Positions 19,877 to 33,259 of a stretch of DNA of 33,491 bases are shown piece by piece; positions within the stretch are counted from its first letter, which is position 1; each line of letters begins with the position of its first letter. The notes under the pieces were generated by a model. That model saw only the letters and a list, made by a program, of their open reading frames with translations. It was not told where the DNA came from and did no database searches. The stretch covers positions 1-33,491 of the forward strand of contig CACYDT010000172.1 of the NCBI GenBank assembly GCA_902773295.1, in the 5' to 3' direction. The stretch is from an uncultured Veillonellaceae bacterium. GTDB lineage: Bacteria; Bacillota; Negativicutes; Selenomonadales; Selenomonadaceae. A program made the position numbers and the translations under genes.

Positions 19877-19907
19877 AGGGAAGACTCCTTTGCTGTATGG
19901 AACTGAT

Positions 19908-19934
19908 TTGACACCTATTTCCGTAGTATATCAC
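19908..19934 (+). promoter_or_regulatory. Possible promoter of the EAL-domain gene
   Basis: TTGACA at 19908-19913 is followed after 15 bases by TATCAC (19929-19934). The spacer is short and the -10 weak. If used, transcription starts after about 19940, which argues against translation starts upstream of that point. It lies in the 106-base divergent interval with the glucosaminidase gene. Confidence 0.3.
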
Positions 19935-19982
19935 AGGATGGCAGGAGAATCCAAGAGGATTTTTCGCAGGATTATGGTGTAC

Positions 19983-21716
19983 ATGGATTTGGGTAAGGAT
20001 GAAATTGATGAAGGAAAGGGCGTGGATGCCTTGGCGGAGGAACTTTGGGAACATAGTGAACAGTTGAAACGCATAAAGTTTTATTTTGATCTCCAGCAGA
20101 GGACTGCCGAGGGATATCCTTTCGTGACCGATCTGCATACCGGCATTGTGATGATCTCCGACCGCATGGTGAAGGAATATGAACTGCCGGGGAACGTTCT
20201 CGTGGATTTCGATCGGTATTGGATGCCCCTTATCTATTCGGAGGATGTGGCGGATTACGAGAATGGTTTCAAGCACATTTTCGATCCGGGCCATTCCGGC
20301 GAGCACAATATTGAATACCGGGTGAGGAACCGCAAGGGAGAGTATACCTGGGTACATTGCCATGGAATCGTAGGGCGGGATGAGTCCGGTGAGGCGGTGA
20401 TGTTTGCCGGCAGCATCATGAAGATGGATCGCATCCTCCATGCAGATCCCGTGACGGGTCTCCTGAACCGCTATGCCTTTGACCAGGCCGTGAGGGACGG
20501 CGTGTCGTCTGCCGTTTCGAAGGGGGAGATGGGGGCGGTCATGATCATTGGGCTGGACAATTTCCATTTGCTCAATGAGGCATACGAGACGCATTTTGAC
20601 GATGTGGCCATGCGGCAGATCGGCCAGAGCATCACCAATGTGCTGCCGACCCATCTGAACCTCTACAAGCTGGACGGATATGAGTTCGGGCTCATTTGGC
20701 CCCATACATCCCAGGAGGAAGTGCAGATCATCTTCTCCAGCATCCAGCTTTGCCTGAGGGAGGCGAAGGAAAGCAATGACAAGGTGTTTTTTTCCGCGTC
20801 GGCAGGCGCAGTGTTCTATCCGGACAGCGGAACGGATGCCCTGGCGCTCCAGAAGCATGCCCAGGCGGCTCTTGAGATGGCACAGCAGCAGGGAAGGGAG
20901 CAGCTTCTTGTGTTCTCCAGGGAGTCCTATGAGGAATGGCTGCGCTTCATCAACCTGCAACGGGCCTTCGAGGAGAGCATCGAGAAGGGATGCAAGGGAT
21001 TCAAGCTTTTCTACCAGCCGCAGGTGGATGCCATCACCCAGGAACTTATCGGCGCAGAGGCATTGCTGCGCTGGCAGGAGGATGACGGCCATGTGATTTC
21101 CCCGCTGGTGTTCATCCCCATTTTGGAGCGCACGCGCCTCATCATCCCTGTGGGGCGCTGGATCGTGGAAGAGGCCGTCAGGACCTGCAAGAAGTGGCAG
21201 GAATACTGGCCAGGGTTCCAGATGAGCATCAATGTGTCCCTCTGCCAGCTGGAGTCCCCGGCGCTCCGGGAACATGTGAAGGAATCCCTGGAACGCCATG
21301 GCCTTCCGGCAAAATACCTGACATTGGAACTGACAGAAAGCCAGCAGGTATCCAATTCGCAATTTGTCAACGAGCAGTTCGATTATTTCAGGCAGATGGG
21401 TGTCAAGGTGGCCATGGACGATTTCGGCATGGGCTATTCTTCTCTGGCGCTTCTCAAGACATTCAGCTGCGATGTAGTGAAAATCGACAAAGTTTTTGTC
21501 GATAATGTGATGGACAGTCAATTTGACAAGAACTTGGTAAAATATGCCATCAAGCTCTGCCGAAGCATCGGCATGGCAGTATGTGTCGAGGGAGTGGAAG
21601 ACAAGGAATCCTATGAGTACCTCGCCCATGAGTGCGGGGCGGATGTGATCCAGGGGTTCTATTTCGGGCGTCCGGAACCCGAGATGATTTTCCAGGAAAG
21701 ATTCCGGAAAAACTAA
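19983..21716 (+). CDS. PAS-GGDEF-EAL protein, probable cyclic-di-GMP phosphodiesterase
   Basis: 577 residues from the chosen start. A PAS/PAC-like region covers about 30-150 (NIEYRVRNRKGEYTWVHCHG). A GGDEF domain follows (DPVTGLLNRYAFDQAV), but its signature has become LDGYEF, so it should not make c-di-GMP and may only bind GTP or be structural. The C-terminal EAL domain keeps the catalytic set: Glu359 in GAEALLRW, Asn in SINVS, LELTES, Asp479/480 in MDDFGMGYSS, VKIDKVF, CVEGVED and QGFYFGRP. It should hydrolyse c-di-GMP to pGpG and so favour motility. The start is uncertain: ATG 19974 and 19938 are in frame; AGGA lies 11 bases before 19983. Confidence 0.9.
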   Translation: MDLGKDEIDEGKGVDALAEELWEHSEQLKRIKFYFDLQQRTAEGYPFVTDLHTGIVMISDRMVKEYELPGNVLVDFDRYWMPLIYSEDVADYENGFKHIFDPGHSGEHNIEYRVRNRKGEYTWVHCHGIVGRDESGEAVMFAGSIMKMDRILHADPVTGLLNRYAFDQAVRDGVSSAVSKGEMGAVMIIGLDNFHLLNEAYETHFDDVAMRQIGQSITNVLPTHLNLYKLDGYEFGLIWPHTSQEEVQIIFSSIQLCLREAKESNDKVFFSASAGAVFYPDSGTDALALQKHAQAALEMAQQQGREQLLVFSRESYEEWLRFINLQRAFEESIEKGCKGFKLFYQPQVDAITQELIGAEALLRWQEDDGHVISPLVFIPILERTRLIIPVGRWIVEEAVRTCKKWQEYWPGFQMSINVSLCQLESPALREHVKESLERHGLPAKYLTLELTESQQVSNSQFVNEQFDYFRQMGVKVAMDDFGMGYSSLALLKTFSCDVVKIDKVFVDNVMDSQFDKNLVKYAIKLCRSIGMAVCVEGVEDKESYEYLAHECGADVIQGFYFGRPEPEMIFQERFRKN

Positions 21717-23772: not shown

Positions 23773-23849
23773 GCGGTTGTAGCTCAGCAGGATAGAGCAA
23801 CTGCCTCCTAAGCAGTAGGTCGGGCGTTCGAATCGCCCCAATCGCACCA
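23773..23849 (+). tRNA. tRNA-Arg (anticodon CCT)
   Basis: 77 bases including an encoded CCA end. The acceptor stem pairs GCGGTTG with CAATCGC (one G-U). The D arm is GCTC/GAGC, the anticodon stem ACTGC/GCAGT encloses loop CTCCTAA giving anticodon CCT for AGG codons, and the T arm contains GTTCGAATC. It has its own promoter and terminator and is a single gene. No integrase or att duplication is visible beside it. Confidence 0.96.
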
Positions 23850-23862
23850 TTGCGGAAAAATC

Positions 23863-23903
23863 AAGACTTGTGTGGCTGTTGTGCCGTGCAGGTCTTTTTC
23901 TTT
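23863..23903 (+). terminator. Rho-independent terminator after tRNA-Arg
   Basis: AAGACTTGTGTGGC (23863-23876) pairs over 14 bp with GCCGTGCAGGTCTT (23883-23896), including four wobbles, around TGTTGT. TTTTTCTTT ends the structure. It isolates the tRNA from the operon that starts at 24026. Bases 23904-24025 should hold that operon's promoter, but I could not place one. Confidence 0.85.
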
Positions 23904-24025: not shown

Positions 24026-26212
24026 ATGAAGCTGTCGATTCGGGGACGGGTGCTGCTTCTGGTGCTGTTCGTTGTGCTTGCCACTCTCTTTGCAGTAGGG
24101 ATGGTATCTTTTTACAGCTTTTATGCTTCGAAGAAAGCCGAATTAGAGCAGGAGCGTGTCCTGAAAGAGTTCCTTTTGGAATCCATGGGGAGATATGCGG
24201 AGGAATATGCCAAAGCAAGACTGAGGGAAGTCACGGAGACCAAGGCCAAGCATTTGGACAGGGAGTTCCATATTGTTGGCGAGAATGTAGAGTATATGTC
24301 TGACAGCATGTCCCGTATCCTGTCCTCGCCGGGGAACTACCTTCCCCGCATCCTGCCCGATACGCGCAGCGAGCCGGATATCCTGTCCGGCACCCCTTAT
24401 GTCCATTATAGCCCGGAACTCATGCGTCAGGGGATTGGGAAAGATCTGCAGGCGGAAATCGGGCTGGCAGGAAATTTTGCCGATGTGCTGGTGCCTATGG
24501 GCAAACCTTATCATGGCGGCAATACTTCCTTTTTTGCAGGGTCGAAACATGGTTATCTTCTGTGTATGGACTGGATTTCCTCGAAGAACGGGCCTGTCAG
24601 CATTTTTCCTTCGCCGGAGGCGCGGCAGGAATTTCTCGACAGCTTTGACCCGCGGCAACGGTTTTGGTATCATCTGGGGAAGGAGGCCGTGAGTCCGATT
24701 TTCACGGATATCTATAAGGGTGCGGAAGGTTATCTGGGGATATCCTGTGTGATGCCTTATTATGATGGCGACGGTTTTGCCGGCGTAGTGGGCATCAGCT
24801 ACAGAGTGGAGGATATTCATCGGATGATGGTGGATGTAGCTCTTGATCCGTCGAAGTTGAGGTCGAATTTCATCCTGGACAAGAATGGCCATGTGATTAT
24901 TTCCTCCGAGCAGGAGGGTATTCTGGCTGTCACGCCGGAACTCATGGATATGCGCGAGATGGAGGAGCCCAGCCTTGCGGAAGCCGCCCGGCGCATGATC
25001 GCAGGGGAAAGCGATGTCATGTCCGTGGAGCTGGAGGGCGATACTTATTACCTCGCCTTTGCGCCCATGAAGTCCGTCGGCTGGAGCCTTGGCATCGTGA
25101 TTGAGGATGACGAGGTGCTGGATCCGGTGGAGCAGGTCAGCAGCGATGTTTTGGAGAAGGTCAGCCATTTTCACGGTACGATGAAAATGATTTTTGAGGA
25201 CTCCGTGCTCAAAATGGGCATGATATTGATTCCTGTCCTGCTTCTGGTGGTGTATGGCAGCGGTTCCATGGCATCGCGCGTCACGCGTCCGATCCGCAGG
25301 CTGGCCGATGGTGTGCGGGACATTGCTTCTGGCAATTTCGACAAGAAACTCGACTTGCATACGGGAGACGAAATCGAGCATTTGGCAATATGCGTCAACT
25401 CCATGGCGGAGGACCTCAAAGCCTATACGGAAAACCTTGCCCGGGCGGCGGCAGAAAAGGAGCGCGCCCGGGCAGAGATGGAAGTTGCGGCAAAGATCCA
25501 GTCGGATATGCTGCCCGGCGTATTTCCTGCCTTCCCGGAGCGGAAAGAATTTGACATATATGCTATGATGGAACCAGCGAAGGACGTGGGTGGGGATTTC
25601 TACGATTTTTATTTGAGGGATGAGAACCGGCTGGCCTTTGCCATTGCCGATGTATCAGGAAAAGGCATTCCTGCTGCTCTTTTCATGGCAAAATCCCAGT
25701 CGATTCTCAAAAACTGCCTTTTGACGGCAAAAGATTCCGGACAGCTTGCTTCTGTTCTGGAACAAGCCAATGCCTTGCTCTGCCGGAACAACGATGCTGC
25801 CATGTTCGTGACGGTGTTCCTCGGGCTCCTCGATCTCAGCACGGGGCATCTGGTCTATGCGGACGGCGGTCATTGCCCGCCGCTCCTGGGAAGGGGCGGC
25901 CGCTATGATTTCCTGCCCATGAGGAAGGGCACCATGCTCGGGCTCATGGAACTTCCCTACGAACAGCAGAGCGTGGACCTCGCGCCGGGAGACACCATCT
26001 TCCTTTACACGGATGGAGTTTCCGAGGCGATGAACGAGAACGGGGAACAGTTCTCGGAACCGCGCATCAAGGCAGCGCTCAATGCCCTGCCGCCCGACCG
26101 GTCCCCCGAGGATATCCTGTCCTGCCTGCTGAAGAGCATCAAGCAACATGCCGGCTCTGCCGAGCAATCCGACGACATTACCATGCTAGGACTTCGATAC
26201 AACGGAAAGTGA
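24026..26212 (+). CDS. Membrane Cache-HAMP-SpoIIE/PP2C serine phosphatase (RsbU-like)
   Basis: 728 residues. A membrane helix (about 8-28) and a second (about 396-412) flank an extracellular sensor of dCache type (QRFWYHLGKE, GISCVMPYYDGDGFAGVVGI). A HAMP linker (about 413-465) and a coiled coil lead to a SpoIIE/PP2C phosphatase. Its metal-binding residues are present: Asp524 and Asp527 in GGDFYDFY, Asp542 in IADVSGKGIPAALF, Asp663 in YTDGVSEAM, and Asp716/717 near the end. It should remove phosphate from a phosphoserine of a STAS protein. The next gene, 12 bases downstream, encodes exactly such a domain. GGGGAGG 7 bases before ATG 24026 excludes the longer frame. It is the likely sensor input of the operon. 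Confidence 0.93.
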   Translation: MKLSIRGRVLLLVLFVVLATLFAVGMVSFYSFYASKKAELEQERVLKEFLLESMGRYAEEYAKARLREVTETKAKHLDREFHIVGENVEYMSDSMSRILSSPGNYLPRILPDTRSEPDILSGTPYVHYSPELMRQGIGKDLQAEIGLAGNFADVLVPMGKPYHGGNTSFFAGSKHGYLLCMDWISSKNGPVSIFPSPEARQEFLDSFDPRQRFWYHLGKEAVSPIFTDIYKGAEGYLGISCVMPYYDGDGFAGVVGISYRVEDIHRMMVDVALDPSKLRSNFILDKNGHVIISSEQEGILAVTPELMDMREMEEPSLAEAARRMIAGESDVMSVELEGDTYYLAFAPMKSVGWSLGIVIEDDEVLDPVEQVSSDVLEKVSHFHGTMKMIFEDSVLKMGMILIPVLLLVVYGSGSMASRVTRPIRRLADGVRDIASGNFDKKLDLHTGDEIEHLAICVNSMAEDLKAYTENLARAAAEKERARAEMEVAAKIQSDMLPGVFPAFPERKEFDIYAMMEPAKDVGGDFYDFYLRDENRLAFAIADVSGKGIPAALFMAKSQSILKNCLLTAKDSGQLASVLEQANALLCRNNDAAMFVTVFLGLLDLSTGHLVYADGGHCPPLLGRGGRYDFLPMRKGTMLGLMELPYEQQSVDLAPGDTIFLYTDGVSEAMNENGEQFSEPRIKAALNALPPDRSPEDILSCLLKSIKQHAGSAEQSDDITMLGLRYNGK

Positions 26213-26224
26213 GGACATATCCCT

Positions 26225-27823
26225 ATGGCACTTGACATTACACCAAAGATGAGCGGAACAACGCTGACACTGGAGCTCTCCGGCAAGCTCAGCGCGCTGG
26301 AGGCGAAGGAATTCGATGCGGCATTTGAGAAAGCCGCAACAGGCATGAAGGAGGCGCTGTTGGATTTTTCCGCGGTGGATTATATTTCTTCTGCGGGCCT
26401 CCGTTCCTTGTTTCTGGCAAAGAAAAAGATGACCCGGCAGGGCGGAGACCTCAAGGTGCTCTATCCTGCGCCGGAGGTCATGGAGGTATTCCGGGCGACC
26501 CGCTATGACAATATCGTGACCATCGTGCAGCGGGGAGCCGAAGAGGCGCAGCCTGTGTTCTATCCCTTGCGTCCCGTGCAGCGCTGGATGGTGGACACCC
26601 ATTTCAAGGTGGCGCGCTCCACCATGATGAACACCGGGGGGTTGGTCAGGCTGGATCCTTCCATCGATCTGGAACTTCTGGCGGAGGCCGTGAACGGGCT
26701 TCTTTCCGCCTATGACATCTTCCGTTGCCGTCTGGTCTTCCATCCTGAGACAGGGGACATCTGCCAGCGTTTTGACGGGGAAGTCGGCAAGGTCTATGTG
26801 GAGATCATGTCCGATGAGGCGTTTGAGGAGCGCAAGCGGGAAGTGAAGCAGCCGTATGAGCTCATCGACCATCCCCTGTACCGTTTTTATATCATGAAGA
26901 CCGCCTCCGCCGCCTATGTCTACGCGGATTTCTACCATGTCATCATGGACGGTACTGCCATTGCTCTGCTGTTTTGGCGGGAATTGGACAAGAGGTACAT
27001 GCAGCTCGTCAAGAAGGAATTGCCGAAGAACTTGCGCCAGCCTTCCAGCTATGCAGAGTATATCCTGGAGGAAGCACGGATTCCGGAGGAGGAGCTGCGG
27101 GAAGGCCATGACTACTGGAGGAAGGTGCTGGAAGGGTTCTCGGAGACAAAGCACCTGCCTCCCGCAGATCTCCAAGGGGAAGCCGTCACATTGGAGCACG
27201 AGGTCGAGATTCCCTTCCCCGGATTGGAGAAGGGATTTTTCAAGGGGAAGGACTTCAATGAAAACACCTTCTTCATGGCTGCCGTCATGCTGGCCTTGGC
27301 CAAGTCCACGGGAAGGAGCGAGGCGCTCCTGGGCTGGGTTCATAACGGCAGGGCAAACTCTGCGGAACGCCGTCTGATGGGGCTCATGCTGGACCAGTTT
27401 CCCATCCGCTGGGATTTTCGCGAGGACATTTCCGTCGCCGGCTTCCTTTCCGGGCTGGAAGCCAAGGTGCAGGAGGGCATGACCTATCGCAAGAGCCTGG
27501 ACATGGTCTATGAGGACGGCATGGAAGACGGTATCGCCAGCTTCATCCTGCAAAAAGGAAGCATGGGCCGCCGCGGTGTCATGAAGCTGGGAGGGGTCGA
27601 TGCCGTGATTGAGGAAATGCCGGCCAATGAGATCTCGGCAGCGGAAAACAGCTTGGATATTGAGATGAATTCCCATGATGACGGAACCTATTCCCTGGTG
27701 CTGGACTATGACAATCATCGCTACACGGAAGGAGCTATGCGGCAGTTCGCCGCCATCATGGAGCAGATGGTCCATGCCTTGCAGGACGGAAGCCGCATGG
27801 TATCCGGATTGCTTGCAGAATAA
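26225..27823 (+). CDS. STAS (RsbV-like) domain fused to an NRPS condensation domain
   Basis: 532 residues. Residues 1 to about 104 form a STAS anti-anti-sigma-type domain: TLELSGKLSALEAKEF, then LLDFSAVDYISSAGLRSLFL, in which Ser56 occupies the regulatory phosphoserine position of RsbV/SpoIIAA. Residues about 110-532 form a condensation domain: YPLRPVQRWMVDTHFK at its start, DFYHVIMDG with catalytic His238 and Asp242 (the first His of HHxxxDG is Tyr), and a latch region near LGWVHNGRAN and MGLMLDQFPIRW. The domain pairing is continuous in frame with no sign of sequence error. It is 12 bases from each neighbour. I infer that phosphorylation of Ser56 controls where, or with whom, the condensation domain works. 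Confidence 0.9.
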   Translation: MALDITPKMSGTTLTLELSGKLSALEAKEFDAAFEKAATGMKEALLDFSAVDYISSAGLRSLFLAKKKMTRQGGDLKVLYPAPEVMEVFRATRYDNIVTIVQRGAEEAQPVFYPLRPVQRWMVDTHFKVARSTMMNTGGLVRLDPSIDLELLAEAVNGLLSAYDIFRCRLVFHPETGDICQRFDGEVGKVYVEIMSDEAFEERKREVKQPYELIDHPLYRFYIMKTASAAYVYADFYHVIMDGTAIALLFWRELDKRYMQLVKKELPKNLRQPSSYAEYILEEARIPEEELREGHDYWRKVLEGFSETKHLPPADLQGEAVTLEHEVEIPFPGLEKGFFKGKDFNENTFFMAAVMLALAKSTGRSEALLGWVHNGRANSAERRLMGLMLDQFPIRWDFREDISVAGFLSGLEAKVQEGMTYRKSLDMVYEDGMEDGIASFILQKGSMGRRGVMKLGGVDAVIEEMPANEISAAENSLDIEMNSHDDGTYSLVLDYDNHRYTEGAMRQFAAIMEQMVHALQDGSRMVSGLLAE

Positions 27824-27835
27824 GGAAAGGAAGGA

Positions 27836-30800
27836 ATGACGATGGGCAAACATTCTGAGGAACAGAAGGAAACCTGGTGCATCGCACATTTCGGGGACGA
27901 TATGCCGGATTGCCTGCCCCTGCCGGATAGGCGTGAAGCCTGCTCATCTGCATGGGCATCCATCTCGCTGCCGCTCGGGGAACGGGAAGAAGCTGCCCCG
28001 GCAGAGCTTGCGGCAAGCGTCCTCTTCCTTCTGGGCGTGTACGGCGGCATAGAGGAAGCAGGATGCCTGGTGCGGACACCTTCCGGCTGGATTCCCTTGC
28101 GCTCGGACTGGGACAAGGCCGCTTCTCCGACGGCGCTGGCGGAAAAGACCGGGGAACTCATGAAAGCAGCATCCTCCTTTGACTGGACAAAGGAGGACGC
28201 ATGGGATACTCTGGGTCAGGAAAAGGGGCGGGGCATTGCTTTGTCCCTGGCAGGGGAGTTGCCGCAGGAAGAACGGGAAGGCTTTGCCCTGCTGTTCCGG
28301 GCTGCTCCCGACCGTTTGACCGTTTCCTATGCGGTTTCCTGCTATACGGAAGAATTCCTTCGGGGCCTTGCCCTCTCATGGAAGGAAATCCTCTTGGGGT
28401 TCCCGGGGGCAAAAAAAATGGCCGATGTCCCTGTGACGGCGAAGGAAACCCTCAGAACCTTGGACGGCTTCAATCAAACAGCCCACGAGTACGACCGGAT
28501 CTCGACCGTTGTGGACTTGTTCCGCGTCCGGGCAGCCGAATTCCCCGACCATATCGCGGTGGTCTATGAGGACAAGTCCTATACCTATGCCGAGGTGGAT
28601 GACATCTCTGATCGGTTGGCAAGCTATCTTCACCGTCAAGGGCTGGGACGGGGCGACGCTGTCCCGGTCTTCATTCCGCGCTCCGAGTACATGGTCATTG
28701 CGTCCCTTGGCGTTTTGAAGGCGGGCTGCGCCTATGAGCCTTTGGATCCCAACTATCCCGATGAGCGGCTGGCCTTCATGGCCAAGGATGCTTCGGCAAA
28801 GCTCATTCTCGTGGATGACAGCCTTCTGCCGCGTCTGGGGAATTTCAGGGACTTTTCGGGAAAGCGGCTCTGCCTTTCGGAAATCGCTGATTTGCCGAAA
28901 CCGGAGGCCACCGAATTGGCGGAGATCGCGCCGCCCGAGCCGGAGGATTTGTTCACGTTGATTTACACGTCGGGAACCACCGGCGTACCCAAGGGCGTGA
29001 GGCTTCTGCACCGGAACCTCATGGCCTATGCCGCTTGGTACCGGCGTTTCTTTGCCCCTACGGAAAAGGCTCGCATCACCTGCTACAACAGCTATGGATT
29101 CGACGGTTCCCTGACAGACATGTATCCGGCTCTCACGGTGGGCGCAGCAGTCATCGTGATTCCGGAAGAAAAGAAGCTGGATCTGCCTGCCTTGGCGGAT
29201 ATCATCCGGAAACATCGGGTTTCCATTGCCGACCTGCCCAGCCAGGTGGGGCGGCAATTCGCCCTGACCATGGACTGCCCGTCGCTGAAGTACATTGTGG
29301 GAGGCGGCGAGAAACTGGTGCCTTTCGAGCCGGTCTATCCTTATGTGTTTGCCAATGAATACGGCCCTACGGAAACCACCGTTGCCATCACTTGCTACAA
29401 CATGACGGAATACGAGCCGGACATTCCCATCGGAACGCCCATGGACAACACAGCCATCTACATTGTGGACAGCGCCGGAAGGAGAGTCCCTCCCGGCGCA
29501 CTGGGGGAGCTTTGGGCAGCAGGGGTTCAGGTCACGGGAGGCTATCTCAACCGCCCGGAGAAGACGAGGGAAGTATTCGTGCCGAACCCCTTTTCCAAGG
29601 AGCCCGGTTATGAGACGGCCTACCGCACGGGAGACATCGTGCGCTACCGTCAGGATGGCAATATCGAGTTCGTGGGAAGGCGCGACGGTTTAGTGAAGAT
29701 TCGCGGCTTTCGGGTGGAGCTTGCCGAAGTAGAGGGTGTCCTCCATGATTTCCCATCCGTGAAGAATGCGGCCGTTGTCGCGCTGGACAATCCTGCAGGG
29801 GGGAAATACATCGCCGCCTATGTGGTGGGGAATGAGCCCATTGACAAGGCTGCCCTGGCCGATTTCATCCGGGAGCGGAAGCCCCCCTACATGGTGCCTG
29901 CTGCCATCGTGCAGATCGATGCCATTCCCCGCAACCAGAACGGGAAGCTCAACCGCAAGGCTCTGCCCGTGCCGGAGATCCATGCACGCGAGAAGGAGTA
30001 TGTCCCGCCGAAGAACGAGACAGAGGCCGAGCTTGCGAGGGGCTTTGCTGTGGCATTGGGCATGGAGCGGGTCGGTGCGGAAGAAGATTTCTTTGAGGCG
30101 GGCGGCGACAGCTTAGGCATTGTGCGCCTGCTTTCTGAATGCCGCGATTTGAAGCTCAATTTCCACCTGATTTATGAGGGGAAGACTCCCAGGGGAATTG
30201 CTGCGCTCCTCGCCCGGCGCAATGCAGACAGCGCTGGTTCGGGAAAACAGAGGGAAACCCATTTCTTCGGGCCTCTCCATGAGCTGCACTATGACTGGGG
30301 GAATTCTCTGGAGGAAGGCTATGGGCTCCACTGCGATGCCACGGTATACCTGGCTCCGGATACCGACATGGAGCGGCTGGCCATGGCCGTGGAAAAGACG
30401 TTGCTGGCCCATCCTGCCGTGGATGCCAGGCTCACGGATGCCGGAGACGGAACGCTTCGCTGGAAGCCCGGCGATTTGGAGGGCATGAAGCCATCCATCC
30501 GGGAGATTTCCCGGGAAGACTACGATGCTTTGAAGGAGAACATTCGCCAACCGTTGAACAAGCCGGAGACCCGCATGTTCGTCATGCGCCTCTTCGTGAT
30601 CCGGGAAGTGGATGGAACGGCCAGCAAGGAGTTCTATTTTGATTTCCTCCATCCCATTATCGATGGGGATTCCATCAATATCTTCCTGGCGGATGTGGAT
30701 GCCGCTTACCGGGGAGAGGAACTTGCACCGGAAGAATACAGCATCTTTGATTACTATGACGAGATGGAGGATATGATAGGGACTCCTGCCTACCGGGAGG

Positions 30801-31492
30801 AACAGCAGTGGAACCATGATTTCGTCCGTTCCTTCACGGAGCGCCCGGGAGAGCTTCCGGGGGATTTGGATCCCAAGGGAGAAAATGATACCAGGGATAT
30901 CATGGTGCCCATCCATGTTGACCTCCATGCCGTGGATGCCTTCACCAAGGCGCAGGGCATCACAGACGGGACACTCCTGGCTGCGGCCTTCGGCCTTCTG
31001 CAGGGCCGGAACAACGGGGAACAGGCCGCCGCCATTCTCACCATCTACAACGGGCGGGACGATATCCGCTACGAGCGCACCATGGGCGCGGTCTACCGCC
31101 ACTATCCCCTCTGCGTCCGCTGGCAGGAGGACATGACGGCAGGGAGCTTCGTGAAAGAGACCCAGGAAAACATAATGCTCTGCCGCCGCCATGTGCTCTA
31201 CGAAGGGGACCCCGTGCCCCTCATCGCCGCTTTTGCCTATCAGGGGGAAGACGTGGACGGTCCTTTCGATTTCTGCGGCGGCAAGGCCCGCTATGAAGAA
31301 ATCGAGGACTTCGAGGAGGAGAATTTCGATTTCTTCCTCCATCGCCGCAGGGATGATTTCTACGTCAACCTGACCTATAACACGAAGGAATACAGCGAGG
31401 ATTTCGTCGCCCGTTTCCTGAAGGATTATGCCAGTGTCATTCACGCCCTTGCAGAGGGGAAGAGGATTGGGGATATCCTGGGGATGCTGTAA
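27836..31492 (+). CDS. Nonribosomal peptide synthetase (partial C - A - PCP - C)
   Basis: 1218 residues. Residues 1 to about 210 look like only the C-terminal lobe of a condensation domain, ending in LDGFNQTAHEYDR. The adenylation domain (about 215-715) has LIYTSGTTGVPKGV (about 374-387), NEYGPTETT, YRTGDIVRY, GRRDGLVKIRGFRVELAEVE and NGKLNRKALP with Lys704. The carrier domain has DFFEAGGDSLG with phosphopantetheine Ser759. A C-terminal condensation domain (about 800-1218) has FLHPIIDG with catalytic His939. There is no thioesterase or reductase. My manual specificity code is D-G-T-D-I-G-E-V-A-K, which I cannot assign to an amino acid. ATG 27836 or 27842 can start. A phosphopantetheinyl transferase is needed and is not in the window. 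Confidence 0.93.
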   Translation: MTMGKHSEEQKETWCIAHFGDDMPDCLPLPDRREACSSAWASISLPLGEREEAAPAELAASVLFLLGVYGGIEEAGCLVRTPSGWIPLRSDWDKAASPTALAEKTGELMKAASSFDWTKEDAWDTLGQEKGRGIALSLAGELPQEEREGFALLFRAAPDRLTVSYAVSCYTEEFLRGLALSWKEILLGFPGAKKMADVPVTAKETLRTLDGFNQTAHEYDRISTVVDLFRVRAAEFPDHIAVVYEDKSYTYAEVDDISDRLASYLHRQGLGRGDAVPVFIPRSEYMVIASLGVLKAGCAYEPLDPNYPDERLAFMAKDASAKLILVDDSLLPRLGNFRDFSGKRLCLSEIADLPKPEATELAEIAPPEPEDLFTLIYTSGTTGVPKGVRLLHRNLMAYAAWYRRFFAPTEKARITCYNSYGFDGSLTDMYPALTVGAAVIVIPEEKKLDLPALADIIRKHRVSIADLPSQVGRQFALTMDCPSLKYIVGGGEKLVPFEPVYPYVFANEYGPTETTVAITCYNMTEYEPDIPIGTPMDNTAIYIVDSAGRRVPPGALGELWAAGVQVTGGYLNRPEKTREVFVPNPFSKEPGYETAYRTGDIVRYRQDGNIEFVGRRDGLVKIRGFRVELAEVEGVLHDFPSVKNAAVVALDNPAGGKYIAAYVVGNEPIDKAALADFIRERKPPYMVPAAIVQIDAIPRNQNGKLNRKALPVPEIHAREKEYVPPKNETEAELARGFAVALGMERVGAEEDFFEAGGDSLGIVRLLSECRDLKLNFHLIYEGKTPRGIAALLARRNADSAGSGKQRETHFFGPLHELHYDWGNSLEEGYGLHCDATVYLAPDTDMERLAMAVEKTLLAHPAVDARLTDAGDGTLRWKPGDLEGMKPSIREISREDYDALKENIRQPLNKPETRMFVMRLFVIREVDGTASKEFYFDFLHPIIDGDSINIFLADVDAAYRGEELAPEEYSIFDYYDEMEDMIGTPAYREEQQWNHDFVRSFTERPGELPGDLDPKGENDTRDIMVPIHVDLHAVDAFTKAQGITDGTLLAAAFGLLQGRNNGEQAAAILTIYNGRDDIRYERTMGAVYRHYPLCVRWQEDMTAGSFVKETQENIMLCRRHVLYEGDPVPLIAAFAYQGEDVDGPFDFCGGKARYEEIEDFEEENFDFFLHRRRDDFYVNLTYNTKEYSEDFVARFLKDYASVIHALAEGKRIGDILGML

Positions 31493-31504
31493 GGGGGGAT
31501 TGCT

Positions 31505-33259
31505 TTGGAACGCGCTGTGAATCCTGCCTGTTTCACCCGCAAGATGTTCTTGCATTCGGTGCTGCCGGCTCCCTTGGCGGCGATTGGCTTGGCGTTGGCA
31601 GAAATGGGGGATACGATTCTGGTGGGACATGCCATCGGCATGGACGGGCTGGCCGCCATCGGCTTTATCTCCCCCCTCTTTCTCCTTGCTACCTTCTTTG
31701 TCTTTGGACTCTCCATGGGGGGCGCCATTGTCTACAGCAATCTTATGCATGAGGGGAAAAAAGAAGATGCCTTGGGCATCTTCCATTTTTTCCTGCGACT
31801 TTCCGCTCTGGTGGGCTTTGGCATCACGGCGGGAGGACTGCTCTTTGAAGACGGACTTCTCCTTCTTCTCGGCACCGGGCCGGAGGACGGCGTGGTATAC
31901 GAGATGGCAAGGAGCTATCTCTTTTTCATCCTGCTGGGGATTCCCTTTGAGATTTTGATGGAGGTCATCACCGCCTATCTTCGGAACGATGATGCCGACA
32001 CCCTTTCCGTTGCCATCCAGACGGCCAGCGGTATCGGGAACCTTGCGATCAGCGCCCTGATGCTCTTCGTTTTCGATTGGGGCGTGGCGGGTTGCAGCTT
32101 CGGTTTTTTCTTTTCCAATTTCCTGGCGGTGCTCGTTTCCCTGGCCTATATCCTGTTCTGCTCGAAGGGGGAGCTTTCTCTTCGCGGCAGGGCTGCTTCC
32201 TTCCGGGATGCTGTCAAGCCTTTGCGGCTGGGGTTTGCCACCTCTGCCGAGTACATCTTTGATGCGCTCTTTACCCTGGTGTCCATCCATCTTTTGATGG
32301 ACATCGCAGGAACAGAGGGCGTGGCGATTTTCAACATCATGGAGAATTTGGCCCTGCTCTTCATCTTCCTCTACGAGTTCATCGGAAAGACCTCCCAGCC
32401 CTTGTTTTCTGCCTTCTTTGCCGAATGCAATTTTGCCGAGCTCCATCGCGTTTTCCGTTATGCCCTGGCCTATTCCCTTCTCTGGGGCATTCTGGCCACG
32501 GTTCTGGTGGTGGTCTATCCCCAGATTCTCGACCTGCTTTTCGGGCTTGAGGATATCGAGGATGCATCCATGGCATATTATGCGGCACGTATCTTCTGCA
32601 TCAGCACGATTTTCATGGGAATTGCCCTGCTCCTGCAGAACTATCTGCAATCCGAGGAAGACGAGAGCGGGGCCTTCCTCGTGGTGTTCCTGCGGCGTTT
32701 GGGTGTCAGCCTGCCCTTGGCCTTTGTCCTGGCAAAGTTCGGCTTTGATGCCTTTTGGCTTGTCTACCCATTGTCGGAGATTGCTACATTGGTTCTTCTG
32801 TTCCTCTACAAGTACAGGAAAGGAGAGCGGCACTTGGTGGAAGAGGCGCGGATTTATACGGCGTTCTTCCCGGGCCGCATTGAGGACATGGCCGAGTATT
32901 TGGATGCCATGGAGGCCTTCGCCGCTTCCTGGGGTGCCAATCCCAGGAAAATCTACACGTTGCGGCTGGCTGTGGAGGAGATCTGCGGCTTCATGGAAGA
33001 GCGGGCCGGCCGCAGCCCGGATGTTCCCACGTTGACGCAGCTCACGCTGATTGCCCGGGAGGACGGTTTTTTCCAGCTCCATCTGCGCGATGACGGGAAG
33101 GAGATGGATCCCTTCCAACAGGAACTCCAAGGAGCTTTCACGGAACTGCCCGAGAAACTGGATACACGGGCATTGGGGCTCCATGTGGTCAAAACCCATG
33201 CCCGCCAGTTCCTCTATCGGAATTATCAAGGGTTCAACACGATGACCGTCACCATATAG
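31505..33259 (+). CDS. MATE-family transporter fused to an RsbW-like ATPase domain
   Basis: 584 residues. The first 450 or so are a 12-helix-type MATE exporter: an N-terminal PLAAIGLALAEMGDTILVGH, repeated hydrophobic helices, and FATSAEYIFDALFTL at the second half. Residues about 455-584 resemble HATPase_c_2 anti-sigma kinases: LRLAVEEICGF (Glu491/492), LRDDGKEMDPF (Asp529/530) and LGLHVVKTHARQFLYR. The N-box Asn that binds magnesium appears to be Phe496, so ATP binding or kinase activity is uncertain. The start is TTG 31505 with AAGGGGGG ending 6 bases upstream. It probably exports the NRPS product and, through its cytosolic tail, can meet the STAS domain of the condensation protein. Confidence 0.9.
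   Translation: MERAVNPACFTRKMFLHSVLPAPLAAIGLALAEMGDTILVGHAIGMDGLAAIGFISPLFLLATFFVFGLSMGGAIVYSNLMHEGKKEDALGIFHFFLRLSALVGFGITAGGLLFEDGLLLLLGTGPEDGVVYEMARSYLFFILLGIPFEILMEVITAYLRNDDADTLSVAIQTASGIGNLAISALMLFVFDWGVAGCSFGFFFSNFLAVLVSLAYILFCSKGELSLRGRAASFRDAVKPLRLGFATSAEYIFDALFTLVSIHLLMDIAGTEGVAIFNIMENLALLFIFLYEFIGKTSQPLFSAFFAECNFAELHRVFRYALAYSLLWGILATVLVVVYPQILDLLFGLEDIEDASMAYYAARIFCISTIFMGIALLLQNYLQSEEDESGAFLVVFLRRLGVSLPLAFVLAKFGFDAFWLVYPLSEIATLVLLFLYKYRKGERHLVEEARIYTAFFPGRIEDMAEYLDAMEAFAASWGANPRKIYTLRLAVEEICGFMEERAGRSPDVPTLTQLTLIAREDGFFQLHLRDDGKEMDPFQQELQGAFTELPEKLDTRALGLHVVKTHARQFLYRNYQGFNTMTVTI

Follow-up and report, generated by a model that had tools for sequence, protein, structure and literature searches.

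Partner switches normally serve to free transcription factors. What, then, would such a switch control in an operon that couples its components to a biosynthetic enzyme and an exporter? The question is raised by a 33,491-nucleotide stretch of DNA from an uncultured Veillonellaceae bacterium (contig CACYDT010000172.1 of assembly GCA_902773295.1), which is referred to here as the window. The window spans an entire contig, one of 192 in an assembly of 2.46 Mb and 88% completeness, and the closest named records are rumen metagenome-assembled genomes (MAGs) labelled Selenomonadaceae or Veillonellaceae. Four consecutive genes encode a sensor phosphatase, a fusion of STAS and condensation domains (STAS-C), a non-ribosomal peptide synthetase (NRPS) and a MATE exporter with an RsbW-like tail (Table 1). 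It is proposed, with about equal confidence for and against, that this operon is a non-transcriptional partner switch which gates a biosynthesis and export unit and in which the tail of the MATE protein serves as a pseudokinase dock.

The four open reading frames are separated by gaps of 12, 12 and 12 bases, and their start codons, of which that of the fourth gene is TTG, are preceded by purine-rich bases which by eye resemble ribosome-binding sites. A first-pass annotation made from the sequence alone had described this spacing and the domain content of the four proteins, and both are confirmed. In a Pfam profile search all domains exceed the curated cut-offs in the order dCache_1-HAMP-SpoIIE, STAS-Condensation, AMP-binding-PP-binding-Condensation and MatE-HATPase_c_2, including the STAS domain (45.9 bits) and the ATPase domain (33.9 bits against a cut-off of 27.4) that the annotation had singled out for this search. 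The output domains are indeed those of an enzyme and a transporter, and the claim that no sigma factor is nearby also holds, as no Sigma70_r2 match is found on the operon contig (C172) or on contig C176, which carries an RsbW gene; the five Sigma70_r2 matches of the genome are all on contigs other than that of the operon.

Table 1. Genes, domains and key codons of the operon, in window coordinates.
Feature	Position	Strand	Basis
Sensor phosphatase, dCache extracytoplasmic sensor-HAMP-SpoIIE/PP2C	24026..26212	+	Pfam; motifs read from translation
STAS domain (aa 11-101) fused to stand-alone condensation domain (aa 112-519)	26225..27823	+	Pfam; AlphaFold model
Codon of STAS Ser56, predicted phospho-acceptor, motif ISSAGLR	26390..26392	+	Invariant in fusions
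Condensation active-site motif YHVIMDG (H238, D242, G243)	26933..26953	+	Alignment
Single-module NRPS, N-terminal part-A-PCP-C (adenylation, peptidyl carrier protein and condensation domains)	27836..31492	+	Pfam; motif table, 18 homologues
MATE exporter (aa 1-440) with C-terminal RsbW-like GHKL domain (aa 441-584)	31505..33259	+	Pfam; fold search
RsbW-like tail, probably catalytically dead	32825..33256	+	Fold match, N-box loss, dN/dS
Codon of Phe at N-box Asn position (VEEICGF instead of EExxxN)	32990..32992	+	Alignment

The first gene encodes a phosphatase of the PP2C/SpoIIE type (SpoIIE 165 bits, dCache_1 52.8, HAMP 45.5), in which the catalytic motifs DVGGD, DVSGKG, YTDG and QSDD are intact in the translation. 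Its presumed substrate in a partner switch, a STAS domain with a conserved phospho-acceptor, is present in the second protein, where Ser56, which we take to be the equivalent of SpoIIAA Ser58, is invariant in the alignment of 33 of 33 fusion proteins. The rest of that protein is a condensation domain (141 bits) whose AlphaFold model matches NRPS condensation domains in Foldseek, and the active-site residues H238, D242 and G243 are likewise invariant in 33/33 STAS-C fusions.

The fourth protein qualifies as a MATE exporter by two stretches that exceed the MatE cut-off (81.3 bits). A PDB sequence search with its tail alone returned weak matches, and it was the fold search that resolved the identity of this domain. 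The AlphaFold model of the tail (17 sequences, pLDDT 79.7) finds SpoIIAB and RsbW as its best Foldseek matches (1tid, E 1.3e-7) and reaches VIA Z scores of 13-15 to SpoIIAB, RsbW and UsfX (14.9 for UsfX-RsfB, 14.2 for RsbW-RsbV), compared with 12.4 to SiaB and about 8 to histidine kinases. The tail is thus predicted to adopt the GHKL fold of the SpoIIAB/RsbW family, in line with the annotation.

The N-box Asn of this family is required for Mg-ATP. It is present in 19/19 stand-alone RsbW proteins and in none of the 22 tails of the main group of loci, where the position is occupied by Phe, Leu, Val or Ile or is deleted; these comprise 17 tails from NRPS-bearing loci and five from loci in which no NRPS is adjacent. 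No SpoIIE is called beside two of the 22 tails, those of L059 and L066. The Gly residues of the G2 box are also partly lost in this group, the catalytic Glu and the G1 Asp are mostly retained, and three tails of a diverged group without SpoIIE or NRPS retain the N-box Asn. The tail is nevertheless under purifying selection, with dN/dS values of 0.14-0.23 in seven homologue pairs. In CapK, the N218A exchange of the conserved active-site Asn strongly lowers phosphorylation of CapS (PMC13373217). Given this precedent, the absent Asn and the partial loss of the G2 box, the tail probably lacks kinase activity and is read as a pseudokinase. The operon alone therefore has no credible kinase, and no GHKL serine kinase with an intact N box is found in it, so that the earlier statement that the three classic partner-switch components are all present stands for the folds and fails for the kinase active site.

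In most relatives a separate gene for an intact RsbW lies at another place in the genome; in some it forms part of the operon. Succiniclasticum-type loci (L055, L056, L057 and L061) append a STAS gene, an intact RsbW gene and a second SpoIIE gene to the operon, an intact RsbW gene separates SpoIIE from STAS-C in L038, and L048 has RsbW and STAS as genes of their own next to those for the condensation protein and the NRPS (this RsbW has no match at E 0.01 in a PDB sequence search). Such variants link the module to bona fide genes of partner switching. When 79 chosen genomes were searched with an RsbW profile, a stand-alone RsbW, judged by eye from frame length, was found in 33/35 genomes with STAS-C and in 9/44 others (Fisher p = 1.7e-11, kinship not corrected for); the two STAS-C genomes without it are 81-82% complete. 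The sole intact stand-alone RsbW found in the genome of the window is on contig C176 (G000, locus L132, 4988-10274, minus strand), in a SpoIIE-RsbW-STAS operon followed by genes for the permease/binding protein and ATPase of an amino-acid-type ATP-binding cassette (ABC) transporter.

A neighbourhood survey of 84,980 species genomes, with genes called by home-made profiles, yielded 80 loci, of which rumen Selenomonadaceae and Acidaminococcaceae contributed most. The order SpoIIE, STAS-C, NRPS and MATE with its tail is found in 16 loci (the window, L037, L039, L040, L052-L058, L061, L062, L065, L068 and L078), among them loci of Selenomonas ruminantium and Succiniclasticum ruminis isolates, with a stand-alone STAS gene between SpoIIE and STAS-C in five (L039, L040, L065, L068 and L078); L038 and L071 are interrupted by contig ends. 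The four-gene order for which the annotation had suggested looking is thus conserved in many genera, and the arrangement is not due to chance. Among 380 genomes surveyed of the class, the full STAS-C fusion occurs in 35 (own genome included), covering nine genera and two families by a count made by eye, although these genomes are not phylogenetically independent. Going by record titles, carriers include isolates such as Selenomonas ruminantium, Succiniclasticum ruminis DSM 9236 and Schwartzia succinivorans DSM 10502, and the possibility that the operon is unique to this assembly or a binning artefact was rejected, since isolates and many genera carry it. The Fretibacterium and Oribacterium MAG loci (L053 and L080) may be binning errors and were not counted towards a spread to other phyla or classes.

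The AMP-binding (258 bits), PP-binding (27.7) and second Condensation (81) domains of the synthetase have intact core motifs, with GGDSL in the carrier protein and LHPIIDG in the condensation domain, and the A3 motif, the carrier Ser and the condensation motifs are kept in 18/18 homologues; residues 1-215 are without any Pfam match. The pocket code DGTDVGEVAK, mapped by hand with the GrsA positions as guide and given no substrate, fits the consensus DG[TAGS]DVG[EQ]V[AS]K of the 18 homologues. Two genes of the phosphopantetheinyl transferase family (PF01648 matches above cut-off) are present in the genome. With a single adenylation and a single carrier domain, the synthetase would be expected to make a small conjugate of an amino acid or a dipeptide-like molecule, which the MATE pump probably exports.

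The proposed switch would operate as follows. A separate RsbW kinase would phosphorylate Ser56 of the STAS domain and so hold the condensation enzyme off, until an extracellular ligand activates the Cache-HAMP-SpoIIE protein, which would strip the phosphate from the STAS domain. The dephosphorylated STAS domain may then dock on the MATE protein at its pseudokinase tail, which would place the condensation enzyme and the synthetase at the membrane next to the exporter and assemble a synthesis-export complex there. The phosphorylation and dephosphorylation half of this model follows known families, whereas we infer the docking and its effect on activity. The arrangement suggests that synthesis and export of the compound are controlled by protein docking and not by gene activation. 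The more specific form of the proposal, a signal-gated metabolon in which STAS phosphorylation decides whether the condensation enzyme docks on the RsbW-like pseudokinase domain of the exporter and thereby couples synthesis to export, is more tentative and has in our judgement somewhat less than an even chance of being correct.

Several observations weigh against this proposal. Five main-group loci lack an adjacent NRPS; among loci of this kind, the Schwartzia-type L041-L043 have none beside the operon (in L041 it is 5 kb downstream), and neither have L066, with no SpoIIE call within the locus, and L067, where SpoIIE is two genes away. Diverged relatives possess STAS-C and MATE without SpoIIE, and Quinella-type loci possess the condensation and MATE proteins without STAS, so that the switch is dispensable in some lineages. 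The co-occurrence of RsbW with STAS-C is confounded by kinship, and since the RsbW on C176 belongs to a different operon that includes a STAS gene, an action of this RsbW on STAS-C is a guess.

The absence of SpoIIE in some relatives is what would be expected if the STAS domain and the tail merely tether the synthetase to the exporter as a constitutive scaffold, with no regulated phosphorylation and with SpoIIE acting on other STAS proteins. STAS-C and MATE loci without a nearby SpoIIE do exist, and MlaB is a precedent for a STAS domain as structural partner of a transporter (PMC7367683). Such a scaffold is, however, at odds with the invariance of Ser56 in all 33 fusions and with the presence of SpoIIE upstream in 16/16 full-order loci, SpoIIE being missing beside STAS-C and NRPS only in L059, where STAS-C has no SpoIIE beside it, and in the Oribacterium MAG locus L080, and we regard it as unlikely. 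Alternatively, the loop may be closed within the operon, the MATE tail being an active RsbW kinase that phosphorylates the condensation protein at its STAS domain, with SpoIIE reversing this. The RsbW fold, the HATPase_c_2 match and the mostly retained Glu and G1 Asp would be compatible with this, but the N-box Asn is gone from 22/22 tails, the G2 box is partly eroded and the operon of some relatives includes an additional, intact RsbW gene. The N-box loss led to the rejection of an active kinase on MATE as the leading model, and it is considered distinctly improbable. It is very unlikely that the output is transcriptional and exerted in trans, with STAS-C as an anti-anti-sigma factor that titrates a separate, sigma-bound RsbW so that biosynthesis feeds back on expression. 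Stand-alone RsbW genes do co-occur and the genome has several sigma-70-family genes, yet none of these is on the operon contig or on C176, and a second RsbW-like domain on the exporter would be left unexplained.

Upstream of the operon, a tRNA-Arg (CCT) gene (23773-23849) is followed by a terminator-like hairpin (23863-23896). The contig ends at 33491 and the downstream context beyond this position is therefore not visible. A GGDEF-EAL protein is encoded at 19890-21716, outside the operon.

The related loci show further variety. In L078 the operon is immediately preceded by a further NRPS gene (C-A-PCP-C), which is accompanied by a STAS gene of its own. Diverged STAS-C and MATE genes overlap by 4 bases in L044-L046, L072-L077, L079, L081-L084, L086, L087 and L131, mostly with no SpoIIE or NRPS nearby and in several cases adjoining genes of RND-type transporters. 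L085-L130 are Quinella-type and related loci with condensation proteins lacking STAS, in multiple copies in some genomes, many of which adjoin MATE proteins with shortened RsbW-like tails. A second MATE protein with an RsbW-like tail in the genome of the window (G000:C114, L133, 6629-9591, minus strand) keeps the N-box Asn and, by eye, adjoins a STAS domain fused to an apparent APH-type kinase, with condensation-like and CoA-ligase-like proteins upstream. The ABC ATPase of L132 has a C-terminus that by eye resembles a degenerate RsbW domain, with no Pfam match there, and an ABC ATPase elsewhere (G002:C29, L184, 10366-11547, minus strand) has a C-terminal HATPase_c_2 domain above the Pfam cut-off, apparently without the N-box Asn. 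In L050 (4106-6798) a Condensation domain with a weak cNMP-binding match stands beside RsbW and STAS genes and upstream of a Na/Ala symporter fused to a substrate-binding protein and of a hybrid histidine kinase. Elsewhere in the phylum, L170 (2232-11568) and L171 cluster STAS, MATE with RsbW-like tail and SpoIIE, also with RsbW in L170, whose partners are an MBOAT acyltransferase and a peptidoglycan-binding protein. Related genomes may reuse the same modular logic, in ABC ATPases with RsbW-like tails and in the STAS domain fused to an apparent APH-type kinase.

To our knowledge, most descriptions of NRPS regulation concern transcription. If the proposal is true, an extracellular signal could switch synthesis and export through docking, and this in widespread rumen bacteria with type strains among them that can be cultured. 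An RsbW-fold domain apparently without catalysis and yet conserved on a transporter would also make anti-sigma-type pseudokinases directly testable as docking sites. Many rumen NRPS clusters have been reported in a survey of biosynthetic gene clusters, in which a term search finds no mention of STAS (PMC8241843). Nothing was found in the PMC literature, which mostly does not cover subscription journals, on STAS fused to condensation or NRPS proteins or on RsbW fused to MATE; partner switches without sigma output are known already, but the papers searched describe none whose STAS and RsbW-like halves are joined to an enzyme of a synthetase and to an exporter.

Like the RsbU/RsbV/RsbW (sigma-B) and SpoIIE/SpoIIAA/SpoIIAB (sigma-F) switches, the operon combines a PP2C phosphatase, a STAS domain with conserved Ser and an RsbW-fold partner. 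Unlike them, it encodes no sigma factor with the switch, its STAS and RsbW-like domains are fused to an enzyme and a transporter, and the RsbW-like domain has lost the catalytic Asn. In BtrU/BtrV/BtrW of Bordetella and SypE/SypA of Vibrio fischeri, partner switches have secretion or biofilm outputs (PMC8256260), but these consist of separate proteins without synthetase or exporter fusions. In MlaF/MlaB, the STAS domain binds and supports a membrane transporter, with the equivalent Thr52 at the interface (PMC7367683); there the partner is an ABC ATPase without RsbW-like tail, and neither a SpoIIE phosphatase nor biosynthesis is involved. CapK/CapS and VapK/VapS/VapC pair a GHKL kinase and a STAS protein with a non-sigma output, and VapS controls an enzyme by direct binding (PMC13373217), but the outputs are a repressor and a toxin, no biosynthetic enzyme is fused and the kinase keeps its Asn. 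In SiaABCD of Pseudomonas aeruginosa, a sensor PP2C phosphatase, a kinase and a STAS-like protein control an enzyme by direct binding and without a sigma factor (PMC7647112, PMC8457831). The operon shares with it the sensor phosphatase, the STAS-like protein and the enzyme output without sigma factor, and differs in that the SiaABCD output is a diguanylate cyclase (no GGDEF domain is found by Pfam among the four operon proteins), SiaC is not fused to it and the kinase is active.

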